This document shows positions 2,716-36,819 of a stretch of DNA of 64,000 nt, in pieces; position 1 is the stretch's first letter, and each line of letters opens with the position of its first letter. Source of the DNA: Mesorhizobium sp. Pch-S (GTDB lineage: Bacteria; Pseudomonadota; Alphaproteobacteria; Rhizobiales; Rhizobiaceae); the NCBI RefSeq assembly GCF_004136315.1, contig NZ_CP029562.1, positions 3,495,501 through 3,559,500 of the forward strand, read 5' to 3'. The position numbers were made by a program, and so were the translations under genes. The notes below the pieces were generated by a model. It was not told where the DNA came from. It did not search any database and saw nothing but the letters and a program-made list of their open reading frames with translations.

Positions 2716-2733
2716 AGGGCCTCCGCCACGACC

Positions 2734-2752
2734 GCCGGGCGCAAGGCCCGGC
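2734..2752 (-). other. GC hairpin between binding-protein and ATPase genes
   Basis: Inverted repeat with perfect 7-bp arms (GCCGGGC / GCCCGGC) and a 5-nt loop, lying in the 65-nt gap between the binding-protein stop and the ATPase start. There is no T-run, so it is more likely an mRNA-stabilising or attenuating hairpin than a full terminator. Similar hairpins follow the other sugar binding-protein genes at 48179-48269 and 62717-62750. Confidence 0.5.
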
Positions 2753-2780
2753 GATAGCTGGCGTCATTGGGAGCAGAGGG

Positions 2781-3779
2781 TCAGAACTTGTATTCGCCCA
2801 TGTTGTCCTTGGTCACGTCGACCCAGGCTTGGCCATAGATCACCTTCCCGGTGAGACGCACCTTGTTGTAGCCCTCGACGCCGAGATCCATGCCGTCGGT
2901 GACCTCCTTGCCTTCGATCGCCATGGCCGCGACCTTGTTCATGGCGATGCCTGCCTTGGCCGGATCCCAGAACGAGATCATGTTGATCTCGCCGCTCTCC
3001 AGATAAGGTCCGGCGACCGAGACGAGGCTGGTGCCGACGATCGAAACCTTGCCGGTCAATCCTGCTTCTTCCACCGCGAGGGCGGCGCCGACGACGTCTT
3101 CACCGGCCGACCCCTGGATACCCTTCAGGTTCGGATAGGTGCGCAGCAATTCCTTGGTCTTCTGGTAGGCGACCTGCTGCTGCTCGGTGCTTTCGATCTT
3201 GTCGGCGACCAGTTTCATCTTGGGGTACTTGGCTTTCTGGTAAGCGATCGCGGCGTCCACCCATTCGTTATGGGTCTTGGCGCTCAGATTGCCGACGAAA
3301 ACCGCATACTCGCCTTCACCGCCCATTGCCTTGGCAAGCGCTTCCATGAGGTGTTCGCCATAAGCGGCATTGTCGAAAGCTTCGACGTCGTAGGTGACGT
3401 TCTTGAGGCTTGATGCCTCGTGGCCAACGACCTTGATGCCTTGGCCAAGCGCTTTGGCCAGGACCGGTTCCAGCGCCTCGGGCGAATTCGGCACCACGGT
3501 GATGGCGTCGACCTTCTTGGCAATCAGGTCTTCGATCATCTGCACCTGAAGTGCGGCATCGGCCGAAGCCGGGCCGACCTGCGAGGCATTTTGCCCGGTG
3601 TCCGCCGCATACTGCTTGACGCCTTCTTCCATGCGGTTGAACCAGGCGATGCCGGAGAGCTTCACCACCGTGACGATCGTATGCTTGGCATCCTGGGCAT
3701 TGGAAGCCACCATGGCTCCTCCGAGCAGCATGGCGCCCAACGCCGCTCCCGCTGCCATTTTCTTGAAGTTGAAAGTCAT
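2781..3779 (-). CDS. periplasmic sugar-binding protein, LsrB/RhaS-like
   Basis: A 332-residue secreted protein. A signal peptide covers about residues 1-28 (positive MTFNFKK, hydrophobic core, likely cleavage after SNA). The mature part is a type I periplasmic fold (Peripla_BP_4). Segments such as GSAGEDVVGAALAVEEAGL and ISFWDPAKAGIAM resemble LsrB/RhaS receptors for autoinducer-2 or deoxy-sugars more than ribose-binding protein. It delivers the ligand to the permeases of this operon. A TGGAGGACTT ribosome site precedes the ATG. The 56-nt gap to the upstream kinase gene holds nothing else obvious. The ligand cannot be told from sequence; the linked kinases suggest a small sugar or polyol. Confidence 0.9.
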   Translation of the reverse strand: MTFNFKKMAAGAALGAMLLGGAMVASNAQDAKHTIVTVVKLSGIAWFNRMEEGVKQYAADTGQNASQVGPASADAALQVQMIEDLIAKKVDAITVVPNSPEALEPVLAKALGQGIKVVGHEASSLKNVTYDVEAFDNAAYGEHLMEALAKAMGGEGEYAVFVGNLSAKTHNEWVDAAIAYQKAKYPKMKLVADKIESTEQQQVAYQKTKELLRTYPNLKGIQGSAGEDVVGAALAVEEAGLTGKVSIVGTSLVSVAGPYLESGEINMISFWDPAKAGIAMNKVAAMAIEGKEVTDGMDLGVEGYNKVRLTGKVIYGQAWVDVTKDNMGEYKF

Positions 3780-9414: not shown

Positions 9415-10031
9415 TCAGTCGTGCGTCTCGCCATCATACGGGGTGGCTTGCATGGAAGGGCGTTGCAGAAACTCCCTGAACCATTTCGAGAGCCGCGGCC
9501 TTCCGGTTTCGAAGTCGGGCAGGTCGCGGAAGGCCAGCCAGTCGAGCGCAGTGGCGACAGCGATGTGGCCGACGTGAAGCGGCTCATCGAACTCGGTCGT
9601 CTGCTCGAGATAATCGTAGGATTCGATCAGCTTCGTCTTCATCCCTTCGGCAAGGGCGGGATAGCGGAGGTGTTCCGGGCGGCGCGAGGTGTCCCAGCGC
9701 AGACCGATGCCGGTTCGCACATACCTTGCGCGACTGCCTGCATGCGCAAGGCTGCCCAGCGGCGAGCGCCGACAGCCGGAATCAATGCAGCGTGCTTGTT
9801 GAACGTTTCAAGATAGTCGCAGATCACGACGGAATCGAAGATCGCCTCACCGTCGGCAAGAACGAGAACCGGCACCTTGCCCAGAGGATTGACTGCGAAG
9901 ACCTGGTCGTTGCGATTGGTTGGGCTGGTTTCGTGGTGAATGACACGCAATTGAGCGGCAAGCCCGGCTTCCTGGGCAAACACCAGAACCTTGCGCGCAT
10001 AGGGAGAGTGGGTCTGATAAAGTAGGTCCAT
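9415..10031 (-). pseudogene. glutathione S-transferase, frame-disrupted
   Basis: The N-terminal thioredoxin-like half begins at 10031 (MDLLYQTHSPYARKV) and includes NPLGKVPVLVLADGEAIFDS, the glutathione-site segment with the conserved Pro and Asp-Ser. It runs in frame to about 9725. The C-terminal helical half (residues ending in LIESYDYLEQ, ALDWLAF, FREFLQRPSM) continues in another frame from about 9720. At the junction the first frame drifts into unrelated residues after VAQGM. The joined protein would be about 200 residues, normal for this family, perhaps with a few residues lost at the junction. It is either a decayed gene or a small sequencing or assembly deletion near 9720. The family call is firm; the disruption is seen directly. 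Confidence 0.8.
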
Positions 10032-10236: not shown

Positions 10237-11208
10237 CTATTCGATGATCAGTTGCGGCGTCATGTGCAGATAGCGTGCTGCCTTGCGCTTCGCGGCAATG
10301 TCCTTCCAGACAAACTCGACCTGATCGATGGTGAGACCAACGGCCTGGGCAGTCTCGGAGGCCGGCACGGCATGGTCCAATGCGTAAAGACAAAGATCCA
10401 TCTTGTCGTAAGGCAGCACGAAGTAGAACTCTTCCTGCGTCTGCGGCAGCGAATAGGTGTCCGTCGTCGGCGGCCGCGCGCGGATTTCGGCAGGAACGCC
10501 GAGATATTCGGCGAGCTTGTAGACCTGTGTCTTGTAGAGATGTGCGATCGGCTTGATGTCGGCTGCTCCATCCCCGTTCTTGACGAAGAAGCCCTGGTCG
10601 TATTCCAGCCGGTTCGGTGTGCCGAGCACGGCATAGTTCAAACGGTCGGCATGATAATATTCGAGCTGCTTGCGGGTGCGCTGCTTCATGTTGGTGGCGG
10701 CGACGATGCCGAGATAGGTCTCCACCGGTAGCCGCAGCTTCTTCTCCTCACCGTCCGGCGAGCGCACGACCAGCGATGAGAGATTGTAGCCGCCAGTGGT
10801 GAGACCGTTGTCGAACACGATCTTGGACGCCCAGCCCGCGCCATAGTCGGGCTCGACCTGGCGGATGAAAGCATCGCGGCGCTCATAGCAGCCCATCGCG
10901 GCCAACATCGGCGCCATGTCCTCGACGGTGTGCTCGATGCCGAACGTATCGGCGACCGATGTTCCGAGGCGCCGGCTTTCGGGATCGGAATCGGCTTCGG
11001 GCATCAGCAGTGCAAAGACGTGTCCGGGGCCAAGCGCGCGCACCGCCAGCCCGGCGCAGACGCTGGAATCGATGCCGCCCGAGAGGCCGAGGACGAGACC
11101 GCGCCGGCGCAGGTCCTTGCGCAGGCTTTCACGGATCATCCCGGCAATGCGGTCGGTTTCCGCCGCCGGATCGAAATCGAGCGCTGCGGCCGAAAAACGG
11201 ATGGTCAT
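10237..11208 (-). CDS. NAD synthase-like ATP-dependent amidase (NH3-type)
   Basis: A 323-residue member of the NAD synthase family: PP-loop LGLSGGIDSSV (near residues 39-49), AATNMKQRTRKQLEYY, GTPNRLEYDQGFFVKNGDG and DIKPIAHLYKTQVYKLAEYLG. There is no glutamine-hydrolysing domain, so it would use free ammonia or ammonia from a partner. Family members adenylylate a carboxylate and convert it to an amide. It is the last gene of a five-gene operon, and its ATG overlaps the ligase stop (ATGA). That setting, beside a carrier protein and an asparagine synthase, suggests a special amidation step rather than housekeeping NAD synthesis, but ordinary NadE function cannot be excluded. Confidence 0.85.
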   Translation of the reverse strand: MTIRFSAAALDFDPAAETDRIAGMIRESLRKDLRRRGLVLGLSGGIDSSVCAGLAVRALGPGHVFALLMPEADSDPESRRLGTSVADTFGIEHTVEDMAPMLAAMGCYERRDAFIRQVEPDYGAGWASKIVFDNGLTTGGYNLSSLVVRSPDGEEKKLRLPVETYLGIVAATNMKQRTRKQLEYYHADRLNYAVLGTPNRLEYDQGFFVKNGDGAADIKPIAHLYKTQVYKLAEYLGVPAEIRARPPTTDTYSLPQTQEEFYFVLPYDKMDLCLYALDHAVPASETAQAVGLTIDQVEFVWKDIAAKRKAARYLHMTPQLIIE

Positions 11209-12758
11209 GCGTCAGGCCCTTTTCTGGTGGAGTGCATTTCTGCCGCCAGCCGGCGGCTGAGCTTGCCGCTGTCGGTCTTCGGCAAAGCGGAGACGAATTC
11301 GACCACCTTGGGAACCATGTAGTCCTCCAGGTGGCGTGCGCAGTGGCGCAGGACTTCACGTTCGGTGAGGTTCGGATCGGCCAGAACCACAAAGGCCTTG
11401 ATCGATTGTCCAAGCACCGGGTCGGGAACACCGGCCACGAGCGCTTCCGCGACGCCGGGCAACGCATGCAGGACGGTCTCGACTTCCTTCGGCGGCACTT
11501 TTTCACCACGCGACTTGATAATGTCGTCGCGGCGGGCAACGAAGGTGAGGAAGCCGTCTGCATCGACGGTGAAAAGATCGCCGGTATGGAGCCAAAGCGT
11601 CCCGGTTTCCGGATCTGGGCGCAGTGCCAGGGCGGTTGCCTCCGGCGCTTCCCAATAGCCTTTCATCACATTTGGCCCGCTGACCACCAGCTCGCCGACG
11701 GCGTCCGGTCCCGCCGGTTTGCCGGCTTCATCCGCGACGTAGGCCCGCATGCCGGGAATGGCGATGCCGGCAGAGCCGGCACGTATGTCCAGCTGCTCAG
11801 GCGGCAGATAGGTGGCGCGAATGCACTCGGTCTGGCCATACATCGAAAAGATACGAACGTCAGGCAGGAAATTTCTTAGCCGACGGATATGATCGACCGG
11901 CAATGGTGCGGCTGCGCTGGTGAGATAACGCAGGCTGACGAACAGTGTCGGGTCGAGATCTTTCATCTGCAGCATCATGGCGACCATCGAGGGTACCAAC
12001 GGAAAGCCGGTGGCGTGTTCGTCGCGCAGGCGCTCGAAGACGGCGTAGGGAAAAGCAAAGGATTTTTCGAGGACGAGTGTCGCGCCGCTGAACACGGACG
12101 TCAGCAGTTGCGTCAGCCCATAGCCGAAGGACAGCGGCAGGACGCTGAGAAGAACGTCGTCGCTGGTATTGTCGAGGTAGGACACGATTGAGGATGTGGC
12201 CGCCTCGAGATTGGCATGCGCCATCATGACCCCCTTGGGATCACCCGTGGAGCCGGACGTGTAGAGGATTGTCGCGAGATCATCCTCTTGCCGACGATCG
12301 TCGATCACCGACATCGGCACGGCGAGGAGGGCATCTGCGAAAAGGGCCGCGTCTGGCAGCGCGGTGTGCGGTTCCGTCAACAGAACATGGAGCGGTGCAG
12401 CAAATTGCTGCACGGCGTCGGCAACGACGGGGGCCAGCCTGCCTTGCGCGATGACGGCGGCGGGCCGGCAATTGTTGAGAAGGAAGGCGATACGCCCAGC
12501 CTTTGCCGACGGATTGACCGGCACGAGTACAGCGGCCGATATCCACACTGCAAAGATGGAAAGCGCAGCCTCAAGGCCATTTTCCATGAAGACCAGGACG
12601 CGATCGCCGCGACGCACGCCGGCGCCGGCAAGTGCCGCGGCGAGACGTTCCGCCGATTGATTGAATTCGGCGTAGCTTATCCGCCGGTCACCACAGACCA
12701 GCGCCGTCTTCCGGCCTGCATCGGCTGCACGTGCGCGAAGATGACCTTCAAGACGCAT
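11205..12758 (-). CDS. AMP-forming acyl-CoA/acyl-carrier ligase
   Basis: A 517-residue ANL-superfamily enzyme. Core motifs are in order: ILYTSGSTGDPKGVMMAH (P-loop, about residues 168-185), SMYGQTE (A5), LWLHTGDLFTVDADG (A7), RRDDIIKSRGEKVPPKEVE (A8 hinge) and KTDSGKLSRR, with the C-terminal catalytic Lys (A10). It activates a carboxylic acid as the acyl-AMP and transfers it to CoA or, given the acyl carrier protein gene 14 nt upstream, directly to the carrier phosphopantetheine. The substrate cannot be read from sequence. Similar ligases occur with ACP, asparagine synthase and NAD synthase-like genes in exopolysaccharide/exosortase loci; no exosortase or polysaccharide gene is present here. 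Confidence 0.9.
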   Translation of the reverse strand: MRLEGHLRARAADAGRKTALVCGDRRISYAEFNQSAERLAAALAGAGVRRGDRVLVFMENGLEAALSIFAVWISAAVLVPVNPSAKAGRIAFLLNNCRPAAVIAQGRLAPVVADAVQQFAAPLHVLLTEPHTALPDAALFADALLAVPMSVIDDRRQEDDLATILYTSGSTGDPKGVMMAHANLEAATSSIVSYLDNTSDDVLLSVLPLSFGYGLTQLLTSVFSGATLVLEKSFAFPYAVFERLRDEHATGFPLVPSMVAMMLQMKDLDPTLFVSLRYLTSAAAPLPVDHIRRLRNFLPDVRIFSMYGQTECIRATYLPPEQLDIRAGSAGIAIPGMRAYVADEAGKPAGPDAVGELVVSGPNVMKGYWEAPEATALALRPDPETGTLWLHTGDLFTVDADGFLTFVARRDDIIKSRGEKVPPKEVETVLHALPGVAEALVAGVPDPVLGQSIKAFVVLADPNLTEREVLRHCARHLEDYMVPKVVEFVSALPKTDSGKLSRRLAAEMHSTRKGPDA

Positions 12759-12772
12759 CTCGCAGCTAGCCC

Positions 12773-13054
12773 TCAGTTGGCCCGTTTGCTGTCGACGTAA
12801 GCGAGGATGCGGGCGATCGAGTCGAGATTGGCAGGAACGATCTCGCGGTCCTCCACCTTGAAGCCAAACTCCTTCTCGATGTAGCCGACCAGTTCGAGGA
12901 TGCCTGTGGAATCGACCAGGTCGTTGTCGATCAGCGACATGTCGTCTGGCAGCGGCTGGTTGTCGTCGCCAAACAGGAAGTTCTCGATGATGAAGGCGCG
13001 GATCGCCGTTTTGGTGTCGTCTGCCATGATCTCTGTCCCGGTGTTTCCCATCAT
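12773..13054 (-). CDS. acyl carrier protein
   Basis: A 93-residue acidic four-helix carrier. The phosphopantetheine attachment site is DLVDSTGILEL, with Ser49 in an Asp-Ser-Thr context in place of the common Asp-Ser-Leu. Length and pattern match stand-alone acyl or peptidyl carrier proteins. The ATG at 13054 overlaps the asparagine synthase stop (ATGA), favouring this start; a second ATG nine codons later (13027) is also possible. It is presumably loaded by the ligase encoded just downstream and presents the acyl or aminoacyl group to the amidotransferase and the acyltransferase of this operon. It is not the housekeeping fatty-acid ACP by context. Confidence 0.9.
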   Translation of the reverse strand: MMGNTGTEIMADDTKTAIRAFIIENFLFGDDNQPLPDDMSLIDNDLVDSTGILELVGYIEKEFGFKVEDREIVPANLDSIARILAYVDSKRAN

Positions 13055-14967
13055 TCGGTCTTCGTGGAGAACGTGTCCAGCCAGAGCTGGGTCGAAACGA
13101 TGCCGATAAAGGCGGTGTCGTCCCGGAAGCTGGCCGTCTCCTGATGCAAGACCTTGTTTTTCAGTTTTTCGACTGCCGCCGCGTTGAAGAAACCACCCCT
13201 GGCAACAGCATCTCCGGAGAGCGCGTCGGCGAGGTAGCCAGGCGGCGTTGCGGCAAAGGCCTGGCTGTCCGGAGCGCGATACGGCTGTTTGGGCCGCTCG
13301 ATGATTGCCTCGGGAACCAGACCTTTCGCGGCCTGCTTGAGGATATGCTTTTCCCGTAGCCCATGCAGCTTCATGTCCGGCGACAGGCCGGCCGCAAAGT
13401 CGATGACACGCGGATCCAGGAACGGGAACCGGCCCTCCACGCTGTTTGCCATCATGACCCGGTCGCCCTGGGCGGAGAGGATGTAGCCCGGCAGCAGGAA
13501 CGACGTTTCCAGATATTGAGCCTGGTGCAATGGATGCCAGCGGGAAAAGTCCGCCGGCAGCATGGAAGCAAGTTCCGCGGTTGCATCATAATCGCCGAGT
13601 TCCCGCTTGAGTTCGGGCGAGAAGAACAGCTTGGCTGCACTCGTCGAACGGAAGCGCGGCCGATGTGAATAGAGGAGATCGTCGACACGATCGTCCCCGG
13701 CGCCGAAGAAGCGGGCCAGATATTCCGGCGATTGCCGCTGCAGGCCAGGCAGATAGGGATAGAGCCGCTGGAAGAGCAGCGGCCGCCATTGCGAATTGGG
13801 CTGGCGACCGCAGAAGCGACGCAGCTTCGCTTCGCGGAAGATGTCGTAACCGGCAAACAACTCGTCTGCACCTTCGCCGGTGAGCACCGCCTTGATGCCG
13901 TTTTCGTGCACCAGCGCGGAAAGCTTGGCGAGCGGCGCCGGCGCTGTGCGCAGGATCGGCCGTTCGACATGACGGATGACGGATGGAAACAATTGCGAGA
14001 TATCGCCAGCGGTGCAGCGGACTGTGGTGTGTTCCACGCCGAGTGCCGTAGCCATCAAGGCCTGCCACCTGCTCTCGTCATGCTCTTCGCTGTCGAAGCC
14101 GAGGGAAAAGGTGCTGAGCCGTTCCGGCTGCGCGCGAGCGGCGAGTGTCGACACGAGAGAGGAATCCAGGCCACCGGACAGATAGGAACCGACGGGAACA
14201 TCGGCGCGAAGGCGAATGCGGGTGGCATCGTCGAGCAACGCCCGCAGTTCTTCGACCGCGTCGGGTCGCGGCCGGACATGACCGGCATCTGGATAGCTCT
14301 GCTGCCACCAGGCGCGTTGGTCGATGCGCCCCTCTTTTACGATCATCAGGTGACCAGGCGGCAATTCCGAAATGCCCTGGAATGCCGTGCGGGGTGCAAG
14401 CGGCGCCCACAGGGTGAAGATCTGGTCGAGCGCGAACGGATCGAGACTGGCCTCGATGCCCGGTACGGTGAGCAGTGCCTTGATCTCTGAAGCAAAGAAC
14501 AGCGTGTCGCCGCGCTGGGTATGAAACAGCGGGCGCACGCCCATGCGATCGCGGGCCAGCACCATGCATCTTTGCCGCGTGTCCCACAGCGCAAAGGCAA
14601 AGTCCCCATTGAGATCGTCGAGGCAGTCCAGGCCCTTCTCGGCGTAAAGATGCAGGATGACCTCGGTGTCCGACTGCGTGCGGAACTTCCGGCCTCTGGC
14701 AATCAGCTCGTTGCGCAACTCGACATAGTTGAAGATCTCGCCATTGTAGGAAATCACCAGATAGTCGGATGGGTCCGACATCGGCTGGTGGCCATCGCTG
14801 AGACCGACGATCGACAGCCGTCGATGCGCCAGCCCGGCTTCGCCATCGATATGGATGCCACTGTCGTCCGGACCCCGATGAGAGAGTTTGCTCGCCATGC
14901 GAGCCAGCAGCGCCTTGGCCTCAGCCGGCGCTACACCCTTTCCGAAATACCCCGCCACCCCACACAT
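13051..14967 (-). CDS. asparagine synthase (glutamine-hydrolysing)-like amidotransferase
   Basis: A 638-residue protein with an N-terminal class II glutaminase domain (about 1-210) and a C-terminal ATP-PPi synthetase domain (PP-loop SGGLDSSLVSTL, about residue 255). I start it at 14967 because this makes the nucleophile Cys2 (MCGVAGYFG), as required in this family; the ten upstream codons are not used. It should release ammonia from glutamine and amidate an adenylylated carboxylate. Members of the family also make amide bonds in polysaccharides, lasso peptides and beta-lactams. It lies 10 nt after the GNAT-like gene and overlaps the ACP gene, so amidation of a carrier-bound or small acid is more likely than plain asparagine synthesis. 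Confidence 0.9.
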   Translation of the reverse strand: MCGVAGYFGKGVAPAEAKALLARMASKLSHRGPDDSGIHIDGEAGLAHRRLSIVGLSDGHQPMSDPSDYLVISYNGEIFNYVELRNELIARGRKFRTQSDTEVILHLYAEKGLDCLDDLNGDFAFALWDTRQRCMVLARDRMGVRPLFHTQRGDTLFFASEIKALLTVPGIEASLDPFALDQIFTLWAPLAPRTAFQGISELPPGHLMIVKEGRIDQRAWWQQSYPDAGHVRPRPDAVEELRALLDDATRIRLRADVPVGSYLSGGLDSSLVSTLAARAQPERLSTFSLGFDSEEHDESRWQALMATALGVEHTTVRCTAGDISQLFPSVIRHVERPILRTAPAPLAKLSALVHENGIKAVLTGEGADELFAGYDIFREAKLRRFCGRQPNSQWRPLLFQRLYPYLPGLQRQSPEYLARFFGAGDDRVDDLLYSHRPRFRSTSAAKLFFSPELKRELGDYDATAELASMLPADFSRWHPLHQAQYLETSFLLPGYILSAQGDRVMMANSVEGRFPFLDPRVIDFAAGLSPDMKLHGLREKHILKQAAKGLVPEAIIERPKQPYRAPDSQAFAATPPGYLADALSGDAVARGGFFNAAAVEKLKNKVLHQETASFRDDTAFIGIVSTQLWLDTFSTKTE

Positions 14968-14977
14968 CAGGCCACCG

Positions 14978-16081
14978 TCATGTGAAACGGTCGCCAATCA
15001 AGCGTGTCCAACCTTCTCCGGCAAGACCGTTGACGAAGGCCTGTCCGCTGGTGAAGGCCTCGATCAATTTCGGGTCGCGAGAATGAACGATGGTGGATGC
15101 GGCATGCACGAATGCGATCTTGCGTCCCATCATGGCGCCGAGAAGCGCAGGCTGCGTACGTCCGCGCAACGCTGGCATGTTCCGGGAGTCGGCATGACGC
15201 ATCATCCGGTCGATCACCAGTCCTTCGCGACCGGGCAGTGAGAGAACCTGGACGACGCGACCGAGACGCCCCCTGTCGCCATAGTAGAGAAACAGGCCGA
15301 TTGGCGCGCCGTTCGAGCGGGCGCGAACAACCCGCAGCACTCTTTCACCGTGGATGACCTTCTGGCGAGCCTCCGCCAGCATATAGCGCAGGCGTTCGGC
15401 ATCCCACTGCGGCCGCAGCGCGAACTGGCGCAGGAATGTCGGGATGATCTCGGCGGCTTCGTCCTCGCTGGCGTCGGCATCGATGAACGCGTCCGCACGA
15501 CTGGCTTCCGGAACGTAGCCATACCAGTCCGACTTGGCGCGCTGCGCCAGGGCGTCGAAGGGTCGGAGTAGAGGCGTGAGAAGTCTTGCCCCAGGCACAC
15601 GCTTCGCGACGCTGTCAGCAACAAAGGAAACCGGGCGCAGGATACGCAGCCATTCGAGGCTGTAGTCCGGCAGGATATGCCCGTTCACCTTTTGCCACAA
15701 AGCAGTCGACAGGTCGTTCGAGGTTTCGGTGAAGGAGAGATCCTGTGGGCCGGAGAGGACATCCCGCAACAGGCGGGCACCGGCGAAGGGGTCGTCCTCG
15801 CGGGCATCCACCATGAAGGTGCCGCAGACGGCTGCGCGCAGCGTCCTGCCGGCATGCTCCATCGCGAGCGGGAAGATGCCGAAGAAGCCACTCACGCTAC
15901 CGTCGTCACGCACATGGACCTTGGAGGCCAGTTCGGGGTCGTAGTTCGGGCCTTCGAGGAACAGCGTCTTCAGATAGTCGGCGAGGGCACGCGGATCCAC
16001 ACCGTTGCTGCGCAGCAGTCGCTGGAAAAGCGCAGCGACAGCCGGCAGATCCTGAGCCGTTACCGGTCTGATCTCAGGCAT
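14978..16081 (-). CDS. GNAT-like acyltransferase, first gene of the ACP operon
   Basis: A 367-residue protein starting MPEIRPVTAQDLPAVAALF, a GNAT beginning. It continues with VSGFFGIFPLAMEHAGRTL and AAVCGTFMVDAREDD, a GNAT-style strand and acyl-CoA loop. The remaining 200 residues resemble a second, diverged acyltransferase-like half (GLFLYYGDRGRLGRVVQVL). I place the start at 16081, where similarity begins; the frame extends 28 codons upstream without support. It leads the operon and could transfer the carrier-bound group to an amine or hydroxyl acceptor. The acyltransferase family is fairly clear; donor and acceptor are unknown. Confidence 0.65.
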   Translation of the reverse strand: MPEIRPVTAQDLPAVAALFQRLLRSNGVDPRALADYLKTLFLEGPNYDPELASKVHVRDDGSVSGFFGIFPLAMEHAGRTLRAAVCGTFMVDAREDDPFAGARLLRDVLSGPQDLSFTETSNDLSTALWQKVNGHILPDYSLEWLRILRPVSFVADSVAKRVPGARLLTPLLRPFDALAQRAKSDWYGYVPEASRADAFIDADASEDEAAEIIPTFLRQFALRPQWDAERLRYMLAEARQKVIHGERVLRVVRARSNGAPIGLFLYYGDRGRLGRVVQVLSLPGREGLVIDRMMRHADSRNMPALRGRTQPALLGAMMGRKIAFVHAASTIVHSRDPKLIEAFTSGQAFVNGLAGEGWTRLIGDRFT

Positions 16082-16297: not shown

Positions 16298-17284
16298 TCA
16301 CCGGCTGCGACGAAGCGTCTGCGACGGTGTTTCACCATATCTGCGGCGATAGGCAGCTGCAGCGCGGCCGAGATGCCCCAGTCCGGCCTGGCCGGCCAGG
16401 TCGGTCACGGATTGTCCGTTTTGCGGACCGGTCAGCAGCGAATGGAAGTGGTCGAGGCGCAGGGTCTCGACCATCTGCAGCAGCGTCGTTCGATTGTGGC
16501 GGCGAACCGTCTCCTGCAGCGTGCGCAGGCTGACGTCGACTGCAAGGGCGATGTCGCCCACACTGAAGTCACGTTCGATGTTGGCACGGATCCAATCCTG
16601 GGCCCGACCGACCGTGGACGACGTCGCTACCGGGGCAGGGGCATCGAGCACCGCCCGGTGCGAATGAGCAAGCGAGGAAAGCAGAAGCGAGGACAGGCTT
16701 TCACCAAGTCTCGCCAGATAGGTGCCGAACGCGGCATTGCCGTTCTCGATGCTCTCCAGCATCAGGCCGACATGATCGAGAGCCAGCCGCCCGGCAAGGC
16801 TCGACAGGTCGACGGCCGTCTCGAATTCGACCTTGTCGATGGCGCGGTCGGCCAGTTCGGTGCATTGCCGTTGCATGACCTCCCGTTCGATCAGCACGAT
16901 CAGCTTGGCGCAGCCGTCGGACCAACGCATGCGGGTCGGCAGCGTTGGCGACAGCAGCGAGGCGGTCTGGCCCGGATTTGCCAGCGCCGTGGTGGTGCCG
17001 CAGTGCACTTCGGCCGACCCGGCGAGCGGTATCTGCAGCAGGAAGAAGGAGGAGAGTTCGCCGGGGTCGATCTCGACTTCCGAGCCGTAGCCGACGAAAT
17101 TCAGCGAATAGCCACGCTGGCGCGAAGCGCGATGAACAGCGTGAAAGCCTGCGGCGCTGGCGTGGCGGGGCGACAGGAAGTGCGGGCAGAAGATACGGCC
17201 GATCTCCTGGCGCGCTTCCTCCGGTGAAAACGTGTCCACCAGGGCGTGCCGAGCGAGCGGCGATCTCAGATTGACTGCGTCCAT
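16298..17284 (-). CDS. AraC-family activator of the adjoining oxygenase genes
   Basis: A 328-residue regulator. The N-terminal ligand domain is of the AraC_binding_2 type seen in FeaR- and iif/and-type regulators. The C-terminal double helix-turn-helix covers about residues 215-325 (VGDIALAVDVSLRTLQETV; SVTDLAGQAGLGHLGR; YRRRYGETPSQTL). The start is taken at 17284 (MDAVNLRSPL); the frame is open 32 codons further, but that region is the divergent promoter. It is transcribed away from the flavin reductase-SDR-monooxygenase genes, an arrangement typical for a local activator responding to the aromatic substrate or its product. Confidence 0.88.
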   Translation of the reverse strand: MDAVNLRSPLARHALVDTFSPEEARQEIGRIFCPHFLSPRHASAAGFHAVHRASRQRGYSLNFVGYGSEVEIDPGELSSFFLLQIPLAGSAEVHCGTTTALANPGQTASLLSPTLPTRMRWSDGCAKLIVLIEREVMQRQCTELADRAIDKVEFETAVDLSSLAGRLALDHVGLMLESIENGNAAFGTYLARLGESLSSLLLSSLAHSHRAVLDAPAPVATSSTVGRAQDWIRANIERDFSVGDIALAVDVSLRTLQETVRRHNRTTLLQMVETLRLDHFHSLLTGPQNGQSVTDLAGQAGLGHLGRAAAAYRRRYGETPSQTLRRSR

Positions 17285-17459
17285 GCCGGCAGCCTTCCCA
17301 TTCGCACCATGTGGCCGCGTATTCTGGATAGTCTTTGCGCGTATTGGATTGCGGCCGCGGCGCTTCCACCTCACCCTCAATCTAGTTGAAGTCTAAAAGA
17401 AACGCGAGTCCGCCATAGAGATGGGCAACGCGTCGGGACGGGAATGCCTGGAGGAGATC

Positions 17460-17957
17460 ATGACGTCCGCGCCTTTCATCGCCGGCATGCGCAAGGTCGC
17501 AGGCGCCGTTTCCGTGATCACCACCACCGGCAGCGATGGAGAGCAGCGCGGCCTCACGGCGACGGCGATCTGTTCGCTGTCGGCCGAGCCGCCATCGCTG
17601 ATCGCCTGCGTCAACCGCAAGACCTGGGTGGCGCAGTTCGTGCCGGATTCAGGCGTGTTCGCGGTCAATGTGCTGTCGCATCTGCAGGAAGACGTGGCGC
17701 GTACCTTCGCCGGCCAGACCGACCTCGCAGCGGGCGACAGGTTCGGCGTCGGTGATTGGCATTCCGGAGTGACGGGTGTGCCGGTCGTGCGTGGCGCCCT
17801 GGCCGCGTTCGAATGTCGATTGGCACAGGTCGTCGAGCACGCCACCCATGTGATCCTGATCGGTCACGTGGTGGAGACTGTGCTCGGGGATGGGCAATCG
17901 CTGGTCTATGTCGAGGGCGGCTTCTCGGCGGTGGGACATGTCCGGTCAGCAGCCTGA
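17460..17957 (+). CDS. NAD(P)H:flavin reductase of a two-component monooxygenase
   Basis: A 165-residue flavin reductase-like (HpaC/StyB-type) domain protein: MRKVAGAVSVITTTG, then GLTATAICSLSAEPPSLIAC, which forms the flavin-binding pocket, then FAVNVLS. It supplies reduced FAD to an oxygenase partner, here most likely the StyA-like protein at 18818-20053. The start at 17460 follows a GGAGGAGA ribosome site; an in-frame codon 13 positions upstream is less likely. A second reductase of the same family, hpaC at 25490-25999, serves the hydroxyphenylacetate hydroxylase, so the window has two independent two-component flavin systems. Confidence 0.9.
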   Translation: MTSAPFIAGMRKVAGAVSVITTTGSDGEQRGLTATAICSLSAEPPSLIACVNRKTWVAQFVPDSGVFAVNVLSHLQEDVARTFAGQTDLAAGDRFGVGDWHSGVTGVPVVRGALAAFECRLAQVVEHATHVILIGHVVETVLGDGQSLVYVEGGFSAVGHVRSAA

Positions 17958-17990
17958 ACCGGCGGGACGAAACGAATCGGGAGGAAATCG

Positions 17991-18776
17991 ATGAAGGGTT
18001 TGAACGGAAAAACGGCGATCATTTCGGGCGGCGCGACGCTGATCGGCGAAGGCTGCGCTGCGGTTCTTGCTGGCTACGGCGTCAACGTCATCATCGCCGA
18101 TATCAATGAAGCGGATGGCGAAGCGGTGGCCGGCCGGATCGGCGCCAAGGCCAGTTTCATCCGCACCGACATCACCAGCGACGAAGACATCAAGGCGCTG
18201 GTCGAAACGACGGTGAAACGCCATGGCCGTCTCGACTTCCTGGTCAATGTCGCCGCCACCTATCTCGACAATGGCGCGGATACCACGCGCGCCGAATGGC
18301 TGAAGGCATTCGACGTCAATGTCATCGGGTCGGTGGTGCTGATGCAGGAGGCGCGTGCGCATCTGGCGAAAACCAAGGGGGCGATCGTCAATTTCGGTTC
18401 GATTTCGGCGCGTGTCGCCCAGGTCGGGCGCTGGGCCTATCCGGTTTCGAAGGCCGCGATCCTGCAATTGACCAGGAATCAGGCGCTCGATCTCGCCGCC
18501 GACGGCATCAGGGTCAACGCGGTGTCCCCAGGCTGGACCTGGAGCAACATCATGCGCCAGCTGTCCAACGACAACCGGCCGAAGACCGACGGTGTCGCCG
18601 CCCCCTTCCATCTGCTGAGGCGCACCGGCGATCCGGCCGAGGTGGCGGAAGCGGTGGCGTTCCTGCTTTCCGATGCGGCGAGTTTCATCACCGGCACCGA
18701 TATCCGCGTTGACGGCGGTTACACGGCGATGGGGCCGGAACGCATCGACCCGGCCATTCCGCTGCTGATGGAATGA
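17991..18776 (+). CDS. short-chain dehydrogenase/reductase
   Basis: A 261-residue classical SDR. The cofactor motif is slightly changed (SGGATLIGEG, residues 12-21, for TGxxxGxG), followed by an Asp after the second strand that suggests NAD(H). The catalytic YPVSK motif is present, with an upstream Ser in FGSIS, and the C-terminus carries the family TGTDIRVDGGYTA. It lies 33 nt after the flavin reductase and 41 nt before the StyA-like gene, so it is part of that operon. In iif-type indole pathways the equivalent SDR oxidises the dihydrodiol made by the monooxygenase; that is the best analogy here, not a proven function. Confidence 0.9.
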   Translation: MKGLNGKTAIISGGATLIGEGCAAVLAGYGVNVIIADINEADGEAVAGRIGAKASFIRTDITSDEDIKALVETTVKRHGRLDFLVNVAATYLDNGADTTRAEWLKAFDVNVIGSVVLMQEARAHLAKTKGAIVNFGSISARVAQVGRWAYPVSKAAILQLTRNQALDLAADGIRVNAVSPGWTWSNIMRQLSNDNRPKTDGVAAPFHLLRRTGDPAEVAEAVAFLLSDAASFITGTDIRVDGGYTAMGPERIDPAIPLLME

Positions 18777-18817
18777 GCCCGGCACGTGCCGCAACGACAA
18801 GCAAGGGAGGGAACACG

Positions 18818-20053
18818 ATGAGCAAGCGCATCACGATATTGGGAGGAGGACAGGCAGGCCTGCAGCTTGCCTGCGGCCTGCTTCAGCAGGGCGACTATGA
18901 GGTGAAGGTCGTCCAGAACCGTACGGCTGAGGACGTGCGCACCGGCAAGGTGCTGTCCAGCCAATGCATGTTCGATACCGCGCTGCAGAACGAGCGCGAG
19001 GTCGGCCTCAGTTTCTGGGAGAAGGAGTGCCCGACTGTCGATTCCATCAACTTCGTGGTGCCGTCACCCGATCAGCCCGGCGCCAAGGCGATCGACTGGA
19101 ACGGCAAGCTCGACAAGCCGGCGCAAAGCGTCGACCAGCGTGTGAAAATCCCGGTCTGGATGAGCGAGTTCGAGCGGCGCGGCGGCACGCTGGAGATCAA
19201 GGAAGCGGGCATCGCCGATCTCGAGACCTATGCCGCATCGTCGGACCTCACCATCGTTGCGGCGGGCAAGGGTGATATCGCCAGGCTGTTCGAACGCGAT
19301 GCCGAAAAATCCCCGTTCGACAAGCCGCAGCGCGCTTTGGCGCTGACCTACGTCCACGGCATGACGCCACGGCCGGAGCATTCGGCGGTCTGTTTCAACC
19401 TGATCCCCGGCGTCGGCGAATACTTCGTCTTCCCGGCTCTGACCAATTCCGGTGCCTGCGAGATCATGGTGCTGGAAGGCATCCCCGGCGGACCGATGGA
19501 TTGCTGGAAGGATGTGAGTTCGCCGCAGGAGCATCTGGCGCGGTCGAAATGGATTCTCGACACGTTCCTGCCCTGGGAGGCGGATCGCTGCCGCAACGTC
19601 GAACTGACCGACGCCAACGGCATCCTGTCAGGCGCATTCCCGCCAACGGTGCGCAAGCCGGTCGGACGCCTGCCTTCGGGACGGCTGGTGCTGGGTCTCG
19701 CTGATGCCGTCTGCCTCAACGATCCGATCACCGGGCAGGGATCGAACAACGCCTCGAAGGCGGCGAGGGTCTACATGGATGCCATCCTGGCGCATGGCGA
19801 CCGGCCGTTCGACGCCGCTTTCATGCAGGCGACATTCGATCGCTACTGGCAGTATGCGCAATACGTCGTCGGCTGGACGAACGCGCTGCTGACGCCGCCG
19901 CCCCCGCATGTGCTCAACATCATGGGATCGGCGCAGGCCTATCCGGCGCTCGCCAAAAGGATAGCCAACGGCTTCAACAATCCGCCGGATCTCTTCCCGT
20001 GGTTCGCCGTGCCGGAAGAGGCCGATCGTTACCTGCAGCAACTGGCGGCTTGA
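18818..20053 (+). CDS. StyA/indole-oxygenase-like FAD monooxygenase
   Basis: A 411-residue flavoprotein with an N-terminal Rossmann motif (ILGGGQAGLQLACGLL, residues 5-20) and the long insertions characteristic of group E monooxygenases such as styrene monooxygenase StyA and indole oxygenase IndA/IifC. Features include KIPVWMSEFERRGG and a C-terminal FAD site, LADAVCLNDPITGQGSNNAS. Its length is close to StyA (about 415). It uses FADH2 from the reductase to epoxidise an aromatic vinyl or indole double bond. The start at 18818 follows GGGAGGG. No styrene oxide isomerase or phenylacetaldehyde dehydrogenase is linked, so indole or a related heterocycle is a more likely substrate than styrene. 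Confidence 0.85.
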   Translation: MSKRITILGGGQAGLQLACGLLQQGDYEVKVVQNRTAEDVRTGKVLSSQCMFDTALQNEREVGLSFWEKECPTVDSINFVVPSPDQPGAKAIDWNGKLDKPAQSVDQRVKIPVWMSEFERRGGTLEIKEAGIADLETYAASSDLTIVAAGKGDIARLFERDAEKSPFDKPQRALALTYVHGMTPRPEHSAVCFNLIPGVGEYFVFPALTNSGACEIMVLEGIPGGPMDCWKDVSSPQEHLARSKWILDTFLPWEADRCRNVELTDANGILSGAFPPTVRKPVGRLPSGRLVLGLADAVCLNDPITGQGSNNASKAARVYMDAILAHGDRPFDAAFMQATFDRYWQYAQYVVGWTNALLTPPPPHVLNIMGSAQAYPALAKRIANGFNNPPDLFPWFAVPEEADRYLQQLAA

Positions 20054-20060
20054 TCAGAAC

Positions 20061-20090
20061 GTGGCATGGCCAAGTGGCCGGCCATGCCAC
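20061..20090. terminator. bidirectional hairpin between convergent genes
   Basis: Perfect 11-bp inverted repeat (GTGGCATGGCC / GGCCATGCCAC) with an 8-nt loop, located between the stop of the StyA-like gene (20053) and the stop of hpaH (20097). It has no T-run but lies exactly where a shared terminator for the two convergent operons is expected. Confidence 0.7.
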
Positions 20091-20096
20091 GCCGAA

Positions 20097-20912
20097 CTAT
20101 GCGAAGAAGACGCTGATCGTTCCATAGGGGCCGAAATCGGCGGCAATGGTGTCCCCATGCCGCGCTTCGACAGGGCGCACGAAGGAGCCCGACAGCACGA
20201 CTTCTCCGGCGGCGATGCCCATGCCGTAGGTGTGCAGCCGGTTGACCAGCCAGACAATGCCCATGGCCGGATGGTTCAGCACGCCGGCACCGAGGCCGGT
20301 TTCCTCGACCTCGGCATTGCGCGAAACGATGGCGCCGATCCAACGCATGTCGGCATCGAGTGGCCGGATGGGTCGCCCGCCGAGCACGATGCCGGCATTG
20401 GCGGCGTTGTCGGAGATGGTGTCGAAGAAGGTGCGGGCCTTGCCGGCTTCCTTGTTCGTGCGCTCGATGCGCGTGTCGAGGATCTCGAGCGCCGGGGTGA
20501 TATAGTCAGTGGCATTCAGCACATCGAAAATGGTGACGTTCGGGCCGCGCAGCGGCGCCTTCATGACGAAAGCGATTTCGGCCTCGATGCGCGGCTGGAT
20601 GAAACGATCGGCCGGAACCGTCCCGCCATCGGCGAAGAACATGTCGTCGAACAGGATACCGGAATCCGGGATATCGATGTTGAGCGCCGATTGCATGGCC
20701 TTGGATGTCAGGCCGATCTTCCAGCCCTTGATGACCGCGCCGGCCTCGGTCTTTTTCTTCACCAAAGCCGCCTGTACCCTATAGGCGTCGTCCATCGTGG
20801 CGTTCGGGAAATCCAGGCTGAGCAGGCGGATCTGGCGCCGAGCGCGTTCGGCCTCGAACAGGCGCGTGGCCGCATCTTCGATTTCGGCTGGCGTCATGGT
20901 CGTCGCGGTCAC
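20097..20912 (-). CDS. hpaH: 2-oxohept-4-ene-1,7-dioate hydratase HpaH
   Basis: A 271-residue member of the MhpD/HpaH hydratase family: VIKGWKIGLTSKAMQ, PRIEAEIAFVMKAPL with the metal-binding Glu-X-Glu, and a C-terminal LSGSFVRPVEARHGDTI. It hydrates the decarboxylated dienoate in the homoprotocatechuate meta-cleavage route, using a divalent metal. The ATG overlaps the stop of hpaG by four bases. It is the last gene of the hpaF-E-D-G-H minus-strand operon. The next enzyme of the pathway, the aldolase HpaI, is not encoded after it; a terminator-like hairpin and a convergent operon follow instead. Confidence 0.92.
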   Translation of the reverse strand: MTATTMTPAEIEDAATRLFEAERARRQIRLLSLDFPNATMDDAYRVQAALVKKKTEAGAVIKGWKIGLTSKAMQSALNIDIPDSGILFDDMFFADGGTVPADRFIQPRIEAEIAFVMKAPLRGPNVTIFDVLNATDYITPALEILDTRIERTNKEAGKARTFFDTISDNAANAGIVLGGRPIRPLDADMRWIGAIVSRNAEVEETGLGAGVLNHPAMGIVWLVNRLHTYGMGIAAGEVVLSGSFVRPVEARHGDTIAADFGPYGTISVFFA

Positions 20913-21772
20913 TCGTCAACAACTCCATTGCGCAGGATGCCGATGCCATCGGCCTCGACTTCGATCACGTCACCCGGCTTCAGCCAGATCGGCGGGTCGA
21001 AGCGGGCGCCGGCGCCGGTCGGCGTGCCGGTGACGATGACGTCGCCGGGCACAAGCGTCGTGAAGGTCGAAATATAGGCGATGATCTTGCGGAAGGAGAA
21101 GATCATGCGGCTGGTGCGATCGCTCTGGCGGACCTCGCCGTTGACGCGGGTCTCCAGCTTGATGTCGGCGATCTGCGCCTCGTCGGTAAAAGGCACCAGC
21201 CAGGGGCCGATCGAGCCGGTGCGGTCGAAGTTCTTGCCCTGGGTGACATTGAACTTGGCGTGCCGGACCCAGTCGCGGATCGTGCCTTCGTTGCACAGCG
21301 ATAGTGCAGCGATGTGATCGAGCGCGGTGGTTTCCGGAATGCGGCGGCCGCCTTTGCCAATGACGATGACGATCTCGCCTTCGTAGTCGAGCTGCGGCGA
21401 TTCCGGCGGGCGTACCAGATTTTCGCCATGGCCGACGAAGGAACGCGGGAAGCGGATGAACAGCGAAGGGTTGGACGGTGCGGCCTGGCCGTCCTTGTAC
21501 TCTTCGTTGCGGTCGGGGAAGTTGACGCCGACGCAGATGAGTTTCTCCGGCATCGGCACTGGGATTTCATAGGTGATGTCGGGCAGGGCGAAGTCAGCCG
21601 GCAGGCCGGCTGCTTCCTCCGCCAGGCGAAGCAAGGCGCCGGCTTCGATGACTTCCCGCAGCGTCGGCCATTGAGCGCCGTGGCGGCTGGAAAGATCCAC
21701 GGCACCGTTGTCGGTGATGGCGCCGTAGCGTGTCTTGCCGCCGGCGGTGAATGTGGCGATGCGTGCGCTCAT
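20909..21772 (-). CDS. hpaG: fumarylacetoacetate hydrolase-family decarboxylase/isomerase HpaG
   Basis: A 287-residue FAH-fold protein: EKLICVGVNFPDRNEEY, the metal-binding DYEGEIVIVIGKGGRRI, then TLVPGDVIVTGTPTGAG and a C-terminal LKPGDVIEVEADGIG. It should carry out the 5-oxopent-3-ene-1,2,5-tricarboxylate decarboxylation and/or the 2-hydroxyhepta-2,4-diene-1,7-dioate isomerisation after HpaE. E. coli HpcE/HpaG has two fused FAH domains of this kind, whereas only one is present here and no second FAH gene occurs in the window. One domain may therefore catalyse both steps, or the other half lies elsewhere. Confidence 0.88.
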   Translation of the reverse strand: MSARIATFTAGGKTRYGAITDNGAVDLSSRHGAQWPTLREVIEAGALLRLAEEAAGLPADFALPDITYEIPVPMPEKLICVGVNFPDRNEEYKDGQAAPSNPSLFIRFPRSFVGHGENLVRPPESPQLDYEGEIVIVIGKGGRRIPETTALDHIAALSLCNEGTIRDWVRHAKFNVTQGKNFDRTGSIGPWLVPFTDEAQIADIKLETRVNGEVRQSDRTSRMIFSFRKIIAYISTFTTLVPGDVIVTGTPTGAGARFDPPIWLKPGDVIEVEADGIGILRNGVVDE

Positions 21773-21804
21773 GCCCGGTTCCTTGTGATTGTCGTGTCAG
21801 CCGG

Positions 21805-22785
21805 TCAAGGCGCGATGATGGGCGAAGCGGCGAGATCGGGATCGCGCGGCTCGATGCCCGCGAAGACACTGCCTTCCTCGAACCACGAACGTGGTGCCGG
21901 CGCTCCCCACAGGGTCTGTCGCTGCGGATCCTTCAGGTCCCACTTGATCGGCTCGAGGTCGGGATCGACCGTCTGATAGTCCGAGCAATAGATCTCGATG
22001 CGATGGTTGTCGGGGTCGCGGACGTAGAGAAAGAAGGCGTTCGAAATGCCGTGCCGGCCGGGACCGCGTTCGATGTTGCCGATGTAGCCGGTCGTGGCCA
22101 TCAGATCGAGCAGGTCGATGATGTTGAGCGGCGTCGGCACCCAGAAGGCGACATGGTGAAGGCGCGGACCGCGGCCGTTGGTGAAGGCGATGTCATGCAC
22201 GCCGCCCTTGCGGTGCGTCCAGGCTGCCCAGAGCTTCCCGGTTTCCGCGTCTTCCGTGTATTCGGTCACGCGAAAGCCGAGCTCGTTGTAGAAGGCCACC
22301 GATTCATCGACATTCGGCGAGTAGCAGTTGAAGTGGTCGATGCGCAGCGGCTTCACGCCTTTGTAAAGGGCGTATTTCTGATGGATCGGCGGCAGGCGGT
22401 CCATCCTGGAATAGAATTCGAGCGGAATGCCATGCGGATCGCGCGTACGAAAGGTGCGCGACTGATAGGGCCGCTCGACCCACTCCACCGGCAGGCCCTT
22501 GGCCCTGAAGAAATGCTCGGCCTTGTCGAGGTCTTCCTCGCTGTAGAGCTTGAAGCCGAGGTCGCGGGCTTCCGCCTTGTCGGCCTTGCGCAAAACGATG
22601 CAGTGATGGCCGCGTTCTTCCAACGCACGCAGGTAGATGGCGTCCTTGCTCTCGTCGGTCACCTGCAGGCCCAGCGTATCGACATAAAACGCGCGCGATT
22701 TTGCCAGGTCCGTGACGGCAAGTTCGACATGGCTCAGCCGCACGATGTTGAAAGCGGGATAGAGATTGGGTTGCGGCAAAGGCAT
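21805..22785 (-). CDS. hpaD: 3,4-dihydroxyphenylacetate 2,3-dioxygenase HpaD (type I extradiol)
   Basis: A 326-residue two-module vicinal-oxygen-chelate dioxygenase. An N-terminal module (LSHVELAVTDLAKSRAFYVD) precedes the catalytic module, where the expected metal ligands can be seen: His151 in RIDHFN, His210/211 in LHHVAFW and Glu264 in HRIEIYCSDY. Spacing and length are close to the Fe- or Mn-dependent homoprotocatechuate dioxygenases of Arthrobacter/Brevibacterium, not to the unrelated LigB-type HpaD of E. coli. It cleaves homoprotocatechuate next to the ring hydroxyls, giving 5-carboxymethyl-2-hydroxymuconic semialdehyde for HpaE. Confidence 0.92.
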   Translation of the reverse strand: MPLPQPNLYPAFNIVRLSHVELAVTDLAKSRAFYVDTLGLQVTDESKDAIYLRALEERGHHCIVLRKADKAEARDLGFKLYSEEDLDKAEHFFRAKGLPVEWVERPYQSRTFRTRDPHGIPLEFYSRMDRLPPIHQKYALYKGVKPLRIDHFNCYSPNVDESVAFYNELGFRVTEYTEDAETGKLWAAWTHRKGGVHDIAFTNGRGPRLHHVAFWVPTPLNIIDLLDLMATTGYIGNIERGPGRHGISNAFFLYVRDPDNHRIEIYCSDYQTVDPDLEPIKWDLKDPQRQTLWGAPAPRSWFEEGSVFAGIEPRDPDLAASPIIAP

Positions 22786-36730: not shown

Positions 36731-36819
36731 AAGGCATAGCCTTTGGTTCGATGGCTTCCTAAGTTGGTCCGCGCTATGTGATGCGACCTGAACGTTGCAT
36801 CGCCATCGCGGAGGAGAGG

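Follow-up and report, generated by a model that had tools for sequence, protein, structure and literature searches.

Does a NAD synthase relative amidate a carrier-bound acid? A putative carrier-protein pathway in a five-gene row of Mesorhizobium sp. Pch-S

The 64-kb window analysed here (the whole stretch of DNA, from the single-contig, 6.62-Mb genome of Mesorhizobium sp. Pch-S, labelled G000) holds five intact genes in one row on the minus strand, read from 16081 to 10237. The row raises the question of what a relative of the NAD synthase NadE does beside an acyl carrier protein (ACP), an AMP-forming ligase (LIG), an asparagine-synthase-like amidotransferase (ASN) and an acyltransferase. All frames are open and follow one another, 5' to 3', with a 10 bp gap, a 4-bp overlap, a 14 bp gap and a 4-bp overlap, which is the packing and order given by the original prediction, made from the sequence alone. 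Its reading of the set as a carrier, a ligase, amidating enzymes and a transferase is supported as well. Tentatively, with a chance just short of even, the row can be regarded as a self-contained carrier-protein pathway in which a diacid is loaded, amidated on the carrier and transferred to an amine. The features of the row are as follows.

14978..16081, minus strand: tandem-GNAT acyltransferase of N-myristoyltransferase/Eis build (predicted fold), 367 aa, first gene of the row
13051..14967, minus strand: ASN, class II asparagine-synthase-like amidotransferase, 638 aa from MCG, Cys2 nucleophile
14962..14964, minus strand: codon of ASN Cys2, the glutaminase nucleophile (sequence and alignment)
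12773..13054, minus strand: stand-alone ACP, 93 aa, weak matches to ACP models, conserved DSTG
12908..12910, minus strand: codon of ACP Ser49, predicted phosphopantetheine site (motif VDSTG)
11205..12758, minus strand: LIG, AMP-forming ligase with a VinN-type pocket, 517 aa, PF00501 302 bits
12123..12125, minus strand: LIG Gly212, aligned with VinN Asp230 (amino-group contact)
11817..11819, minus strand: LIG Arg314, aligned with VinN Arg331 (carboxylate contact)
10237..11208, minus strand: NadE-like ATP-PPi amidating enzyme of the NF002048/PRK00876 subfamily, 323 aa, 513.5 bits against a cut-off of 313
11065..11082, minus strand: PP-loop SGGIDS of the NadE-like enzyme (sequence and alignment)

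In brief, LIG would adenylate one carboxylate of a small diacid and load it onto Ser49 of the ACP, while a conserved arginine would grip the other carboxylate, much as the one of VinN does. As a repurposed ammonia-dependent NAD synthase, the NadE-like enzyme would then use ATP to activate the free carboxylate on the carrier and turn it into a carboxamide, and the tandem-GNAT enzyme would unload the carrier by passing the amidated acyl group to an amine. A second amide would come from ASN; its likeliest site is the acceptor, by analogy with WbpS, which acts on a uronic acid. For most relatives, an aspartate-like amino diacid is proposed as the acid, with an amino sugar within a surface polysaccharide as the probable acceptor; in the clade of the window, the acid would be a non-amino diacid and the acceptor would come from elsewhere in the cell. 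Every one of these chemical steps, and both substrates, are deduced from the gene row, its conservation, pocket residues placed by alignment, a predicted fold and genomic associations, and the division of labour between the two amidating enzymes is a proposal that sequence alone would not decide.

The row is held together well beyond this genome. Neighbourhoods predicted by codon-weighted gene calling were read at 47 loci and at 80 named loci (the best 80 of 586 relatives), and these 127 were reduced to 119 distinct loci, 9 of them shorter than 15 kb, by deduplication on the last 250 residues of NadE only. Counting genes on the same strand and within 8 kb of the NadE-like gene, ASN, ACP and LIG all stand beside it in 103 of the 119 loci, permuted orders also occurring; the recurrence of this four-gene core rules out a chance packing of the five genes, and the gene order, whose restriction to one species had been named beforehand as a reason to abandon the idea, is conserved across loci. 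In 11 loci the NadE-like gene has no ASN beside it, and other losses affect 5 (L135, L147, L148, L150, L174), partly at contig ends. In L147, L148 and L150 the ligase is displaced or was not found, and the ACP then directly precedes the NadE-like gene, which ties the latter to the carrier. Both ASN-less genomes that were tested (G047 and G140) encode a full ASN elsewhere (1064 and 1067 bits).

The NadE-like protein shares with ammonia-dependent NAD synthase its family (PF02540), the PP-loop and many ATP-site residues, and differs from it by a changed substrate loop, an insert and gene partners of its own. As had been predicted, it has no glutaminase domain (Pfam). Within its PP-loop SGGxDS (S43-S48), S43, G44, G45, D47 and S48 are invariant in the 23 NadE-like proteins aligned, which were compared with 7 true NadE sequences from the same genomes (two pairs of which are close kin). 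Among the positions invariant in true NadE, Tyr is replaced by Glu71, Thr by Val209 and Leu by Thr251 in 23/23 NadE-like proteins, and Ala by Thr249 in 91%; as motifs, MPY becomes MPE, the Thr of the GxxT place becomes Val209 and the P-S/T-A-D/E-L loop becomes PTTDT. The insert lies near residues 115-168 and amounts to about 40-50 extra residues in the alignments.

The ligase points to a diacid. Its best named model is ligase_PEP_1 (TIGR03098), to which it is not assigned since its 413 bits lie below the cut-off of 592, and residues 150-420 have VinN as their closest PDB relative (3wvn, E 4.9e-56; the identity of 3wvn is taken from a table in passages of the group PMC7756342, PMC11253843 and PMC12186527). 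VinN positions are given as in the papers, from which the PDB chain numbering is offset by 16, as judged from the fit of the residues. The pocket was compared over 116 rows (115 loci plus the window), loci without a readable ligase being dropped. Arginine occupies the place of VinN Arg331 in 116/116 ligases, a bulky aromatic residue (Tyr213, at the place of VinN Phe231) is present in all 115 readable ones, and the VinN-type short beta13-beta14 loop, which holds the Arg, appears as a one-residue gap in the alignment of LIG to LgrA. The arginine is found in 0 of the 12 readable sequences among 15 other AMP-binding proteins of the window's genome (L261, L262 and L273 being unreadable). Asp at position 212 occurs together with Thr at 282 in 68 of the 116 ligases, and an Asp/Thr/Lys trio co-varies: the pocket code is DYYNTKRC in 36/36 methyltransferase-linked loci with a readable ligase. 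The pocket of most relatives is predicted to fit an aspartate-like amino diacid. In the ligase of the window, Gly212 and Ala282 take the places of VinN Asp230 and Ser299, the amino and carboxyl contacts; throughout the window's clade Asp is absent at position 212 (0/25; 11 Thr, 13 Gly, 1 Asn), as are Thr282 and Lys313. Since the amino-binding Asp is lost there, the ligase of this clade is predicted to load a non-amino diacid, for example a succinate- or malate-like one.

Systems of this kind have been described. According to passages of PMC11284099, VinN loads 3-methylaspartate onto a free carrier, and in passages of the same paper and of PMC7756342, PMC11253843 and PMC12186527, VinN/VinL (vicenistatin), BolO/BolC and AfcQ combine a free-standing ligase with a carrier and take up aspartate-type diacids via the side-chain carboxyl; the free alpha-carboxyl of the aspartate loaded by VinN or BolO is then removed by a decarboxylase dependent on pyridoxal phosphate (PLP). 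The present row resembles these systems by its LIG pocket, nearest to that of VinN, by the short loop with its Arg, by the aromatic residue at the Phe231 place and by the stand-alone carrier. It differs from them by the NadE-like amidating enzyme, by the lack of any decarboxylase seen in the row and, in the window, by a pocket without the Asp and the Ser/Thr. A search with TIGR03099 (exosortase-type PLP decarboxylase) gave a match over the cut-off of 478 in 0/9 genomes with the gene set. A second AMP-binding ligase, which belongs to the other ligases of this genome, is encoded in the window at 36763-38454 (G000:C1:3532425, L269); it matches the LIG model with E 2e-72 and is devoid of the pocket Arg.

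The carrier and the enzyme that would unload it are less well covered by known models. The ACP has no Pfam match and matches NCBIfam models only far below their cut-offs (OlsHI ACP 53.9 bits, AmcB 37.3 bits), and the DSTG serine, proposed beforehand as Ser49, is kept in 47/47 aligned copies. For the acyltransferase, the earlier label "GNAT-like" does not follow from the window's own sequence, which has no family match at 0.001 in NCBIfam and Pfam profile scans, and is borne out by the predicted fold: the model contains two GNAT halves in one chain and gives a full-length structural match of N-myristoyltransferase/Eis build, so that the first gene is, on the basis of this model, assigned to a putative tandem-GNAT acyltransferase of that build. 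Acetyltransf_9 is weakly matched in 10 of 24 relatives. GNAT proteins (two GNAT families pooled) are encoded in 92 of the 108 loci without a thioesterase and in 0 of the 11 loci with one. Two tandem relatives of the acyltransferase (about 256-265 bits) are encoded at G000:C1:414767-417255, among pnp/rpsO-like and fabA-fabB-fabI-like genes (named by eye), and such relatives are also present in two other genomes of the same genus (two copies in G390, one match in G387). For the window, a companion polysaccharide operon with a second GNAT elsewhere in the genome was considered and rejected: no polysaccharide model matches in the 40 kb around G000:C1:414767-417255.

Furthermore, a PrmC-like methyltransferase accompanies 37 of the 119 loci. 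PrmC is a glutamine-amide methylase. The cluster's protein reaches 159-178 bits on the PrmC model TIGR03534, short of the cut-off of 199, and exceeds that of hemK_fam (3/3 tested); its match starts at position 46-53 of the 253 of the PrmC model, the first 45-52 positions being missing, which would fit methylation of an amide on a target other than release factor. Such a protein is absent from the genome of the window, whose sole match (117 bits, where a true member reaches 375) was taken for an ordinary PrmC. Where the methyltransferase-linked form occurs in this genus, a ligase-like protein of 860-880 aa is encoded ahead of the NadE-like gene (L084 2500-5115, L088 10458-13106, L089 6921-9515), and the one of L084 contains adenylation and thioesterase domains (Pfam).

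The acceptor is suggested by the surroundings of the relatives. Polysaccharide markers (glycosyltransferases, sugar-phosphate transferase, Wza, Wzz, flippase, O-ligase) occur in 43 of the 119 loci against 5 of 40 control stretches (p 0.005) and in 17 of the 47 loci of the first set (p 0.014); the controls were one stretch from each of 40 of the first 47 genomes, and the marker models had proteins of the test loci themselves as seeds, a bias towards the test side. The occurrence of relatives in polysaccharide loci, stated in the original prediction, agrees with these counts. By arrangement, markers are found in 24 of 37 loci with the methyltransferase, in 11 of 21 with neither partner, in 4 of 33 with the arrangement of the window and in 4 of 28 with one of the remaining GNAT arrangements. 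In Azospirillum lipoferum 4B, the order is sugar transferase, O-ligase, glycosyltransferases, deacetylase, ACP, LIG, ASN, NadE-like and GNAT, and on pSymB of the laboratory strain S. meliloti 2011 the core row, in the glycan-linked form, lies about 10 kb from GNAT, methyltransferase and flippase genes. The S. meliloti ligase, of the Asp212/Thr282 form, is predicted to load aspartate.

The window itself belongs to a different part of the NadE-like tree. It falls within a clade of 26 leaves (support 0.93); none of the other 25 loci has a marker, four of these being short or ending early (L097 at 3.7 kb, L065, L070, L098); the leaf of the window was first labelled marker-free by hand and checked afterwards. 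The stand-alone nature suggested for the row is in this way supported for the lineage of the window. An exosortase, likewise said to be missing, was not found in the window's genome (PF09721), and exosortases were found in 2 of 10 genomes searched (G439 and G585), distant from the row. The genes recall those associated with exosortase A (XrtA) exopolysaccharides, as ligase_PEP_1 is the best named model for LIG and eps_aminotran_1 (TIGR03108) the second-best for ASN (410 bits, cut-off 817). Unlike them, they miss both cut-offs by far, have no exosortase in the genome and include the NadE-like enzyme. A plain part of an exosortase locus is ruled out by the missed cut-offs and the lack of an exosortase in the window's genome.

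For the second amide, the best precedent in a glycan pathway would, by analogy, be WbpS. In passages of PMC7468200, the asparagine-synthase-like WbpS makes a uronamide in the Wbp/Vim pathway (linking sugar of type IX secretion), the N-acetyltransferase-like VimA is proposed to place an amino acid on a sugar amine, and relatives are named in exosortase loci. The likeness lies in an ASN-type amidating enzyme combined with an acyl-transferring enzyme, and in relatives within exosortase loci. The Wbp/Vim pathway, in the description given by those passages, includes no carrier protein, ligase or NadE-like enzyme, and the row of the window has no adjoining sugar genes.

Several observations weigh against the proposed pathway. 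A carrier-bound diacid offers one free carboxylate, so that ASN needs a second target, and none is shown by the window; as had been predicted, the marker models find no polysaccharide marker in its 64 kb, and a clade that keeps ASN without a sugar gene nearby fits the proposal poorly. The mutual exclusion of GNAT and thioesterase follows clades and may reflect history rather than function; 16 of the 119 loci have neither, and two loci of the window's clade, L098 and L103, have no GNAT next to the core. Asp212 is absent outside this clade too, in a Neorhizobium-and-kin clade and in basal loci linked to polysaccharides; as five loci with a polysaccharide link (L090, L093, L094, L095, L171) are without it, loss of the Asp alone is no sign of a stand-alone state. 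A decarboxylating step may exist in G390, a member of the window's clade, which encodes a 360-bit relative of TIGR03099 elsewhere (other genomes reach 148-213 bits or nothing). Finally, the co-location counts are not independent, as they come from related genomes.

An unlikely alternative is a stand-alone small-molecule pathway whose acyltransferase would couple the amidated acyl group with a free amine, for example that of an amino acid, to give a compatible solute, a signal or a metallophore. N-acetylglutaminylglutamine amide is made in such a way, by an acyltransferase/ligase and an asparagine-synthase-like enzyme, and ASN gives 352 bits (cut-off 570) on the corresponding amidotransferase model TIGR03104. 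The marker-free state of the window's clade and its altered ligase pocket speak for this alternative, as does the scarcity of shared neighbours: the largest reading-frame family common to the clade neighbourhoods is present in 10 of 25 loci and looks generic (by eye, frames over ABC-transporter ATPase genes). Against it stand the link of same-core relatives to surface glycans and the absence from the row of any exporter or receptor gene that could be seen.

The conservation of ASN bears on two further alternatives. ASN matches asn_synth_AEB with 502 bits and PF00733 together with GATase domains, and its best PDB relatives are the hydroxyamidotransferase 7ylz (E 4.5e-62) and then AsnB (1ct9), with both of which it has the catalytic motifs in common. 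The copy of the window contains MCG, HxRLS, NGE, SDTE, SGGLDSS, GEGADE and Lys560. Cys2, which had been noticed beforehand, is present in 28/28 rows that reach the start (the other 18 of 46 are gapped by the gene calls), GEGADE and the Lys are found in 46/46, SGGLDSS has one exception at each of two places, and N75 and E77 are kept in 45/46 and 44/46 rows, respectively. In G047 and G140, ASN lies within a run of flippase, GNAT, Wzz, O-ligase, deacetylase and glycosyltransferase genes, apart from ACP, LIG and NadE-like, which fits two targets.

ASN and the NadE-like enzyme could also act in series on one molecule, the former making an amide that the latter would activate, in the manner of N-type ATP pyrophosphatases such as those of the WbpG/PseA or QueC kind, to yield an amidine or nitrile and with it an unusual head group. 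The ATP-PPi motifs are kept in both enzymes, and the series would explain the presence of two amidating enzymes for a single visible free carboxylate. It is decidedly unlikely. The separation of ASN from ACP, LIG and NadE-like in 11 loci, with ASN inside a sugar operon in the two genomes examined (G047 and G140), points rather to a substrate of its own, and the closest kin of the NadE-like enzyme are the NAD synthases, whose target for amidation is a carboxylate.

That ASN supplies ammonia to the NadE-like enzyme, the idea put forward at the outset, found no support as its main role, and a pair in which ASN acts solely as a glutaminase is very unlikely. The missing glutaminase domain of the NadE-like enzyme, the readable copies of ASN all having Cys2 and the near-constant glutamine-site residues would all suit such channelling, but the synthetase residues of ASN, needless for a pure glutaminase, are kept in nearly every copy, and ASN stands apart in the same 11 loci.

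That the gene is a second NAD synthase sitting by happenstance in a lipid- or polyketide-like operon is hardly credible, for all its database name, its PP-loop and the many NadE residues kept, since the substrate loop is changed, the chain carries an insert, the partnership with ACP, ligase and ASN is steady, and a separate NadE exists in all genomes with the family. Indeed, a second NadE is encoded in 48/48 of these genomes, as an open frame of 561 aa in that of the window and as a partial PF02540 match within an open frame of 695-826 aa in G014, G106, G117, G187, G360 and G473; one of the refuting cases named in the original prediction, that the NadE-like gene be the genome's only NAD synthase, is thereby not borne out. 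This, together with the changes at residues fixed in true NadE, rules out NAD metabolism as the role. Members bear the label NAD(+) synthase in databases, for instance in plasmids of S. meliloti RCAM1115, Mesorhizobium ciceri, Shinella and Nitratireductor, so that a biosynthetic system is hidden under a housekeeping name.

To return to the carrier-protein pathway, the kinds of part are already known, namely VinN-type loading, WbpS-type amidation and the exosortase-associated ligase with its amidotransferase, and a Zoogloea polysaccharide cluster with two asparagine synthetase genes appears in passages of PMC9012009. A literature search of open-licence PMC papers found none on this gene set combined with a NadE-like enzyme, by which absence from print is not established. 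There is a real chance of new chemistry. A fuller account is possible, though more doubtful than likely: an NAD synthase recruited for carrier-protein tailoring would amidate the free carboxylate of a diacid on the ACP, standing in for the decarboxylase that acts in the VinN and BtrK pathways and giving isoasparaginyl- or succinamoyl-type acyl groups that an N-myristoyltransferase-like enzyme would put on amines. In most relatives this would decorate surface glycans, some of the groups being N-methylated by a PrmC-derived enzyme, and one clade (rhizobia and their kin, the window included) would have become independent as a unit of five genes, sometimes carried on a plasmid, that takes a new diacid. 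If this were true, NAD synthase chemistry would have found a new use in carrier-bound amidation, bacterial glycans or small molecules would have gained a new kind of acyl decoration, and a strain's choice between two kinds of acid could be predicted from its ligase pocket.

The distribution of the NadE-like family is patchy. Among sampled genomes, 36 of 199 from the family and 15 of 398 from the phylum have it at E 1e-60, a relative is also present in Methanosarcina acetivorans, a control genome, it is absent from three of the same-genus genomes shown, and the closest named copy among the matches listed is that of Mesorhizobium loti LU, with a NadE-like protein 95% identical. No phage record contains the NadE-like gene at E 1e-30, and 116 plasmid records do (among them Sinorhizobium 76, Azospirillum 12, Ensifer 9, Shinella 8 and Mesorhizobium 7). 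On a plasmid of Nitratireductor rhodophyticola (L179), the stretch immediately upstream of the five genes (298-3673) is occupied by TniB/TniQ and Mu-type transposase genes, which suggests a travelling row. Among L176, L184 and L178, the row is near minCDE in plasmids of S. meliloti RCAM1115 and Rhizobium sp. ACO-34A and near phosphatidate-metabolism genes in Shinella sp. PSBB067. ACP and ASN relatives are adjacent at 9731-11989 of L183 (a plasmid of Streptomyces sp. NBC_01483), a 21.9-kb stretch without a NadE-like or LIG match.

Two further observations concern the flanks of the row in the window. Just downstream, at 9415-10030, a glutathione-S-transferase-like gene is seemingly split over two reading frames and therefore looks broken in this strain. 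On the other side, the block at 16298-22785 encodes homoprotocatechuate ring-cleavage proteins (HpaH 419 bits, HpaD 430 bits, both over cut-off), a StyA-like flavin monooxygenase (225 of 550 bits), an HpaC/RutF-like flavin reductase, an SDR-like protein and a divergent AraC-type regulator; the block has the look of a pathway for aromatic compounds whose StyA-like entry enzyme is unusual, and part of it (AraC to HpaH) flanks the row in L086 and L087 too.

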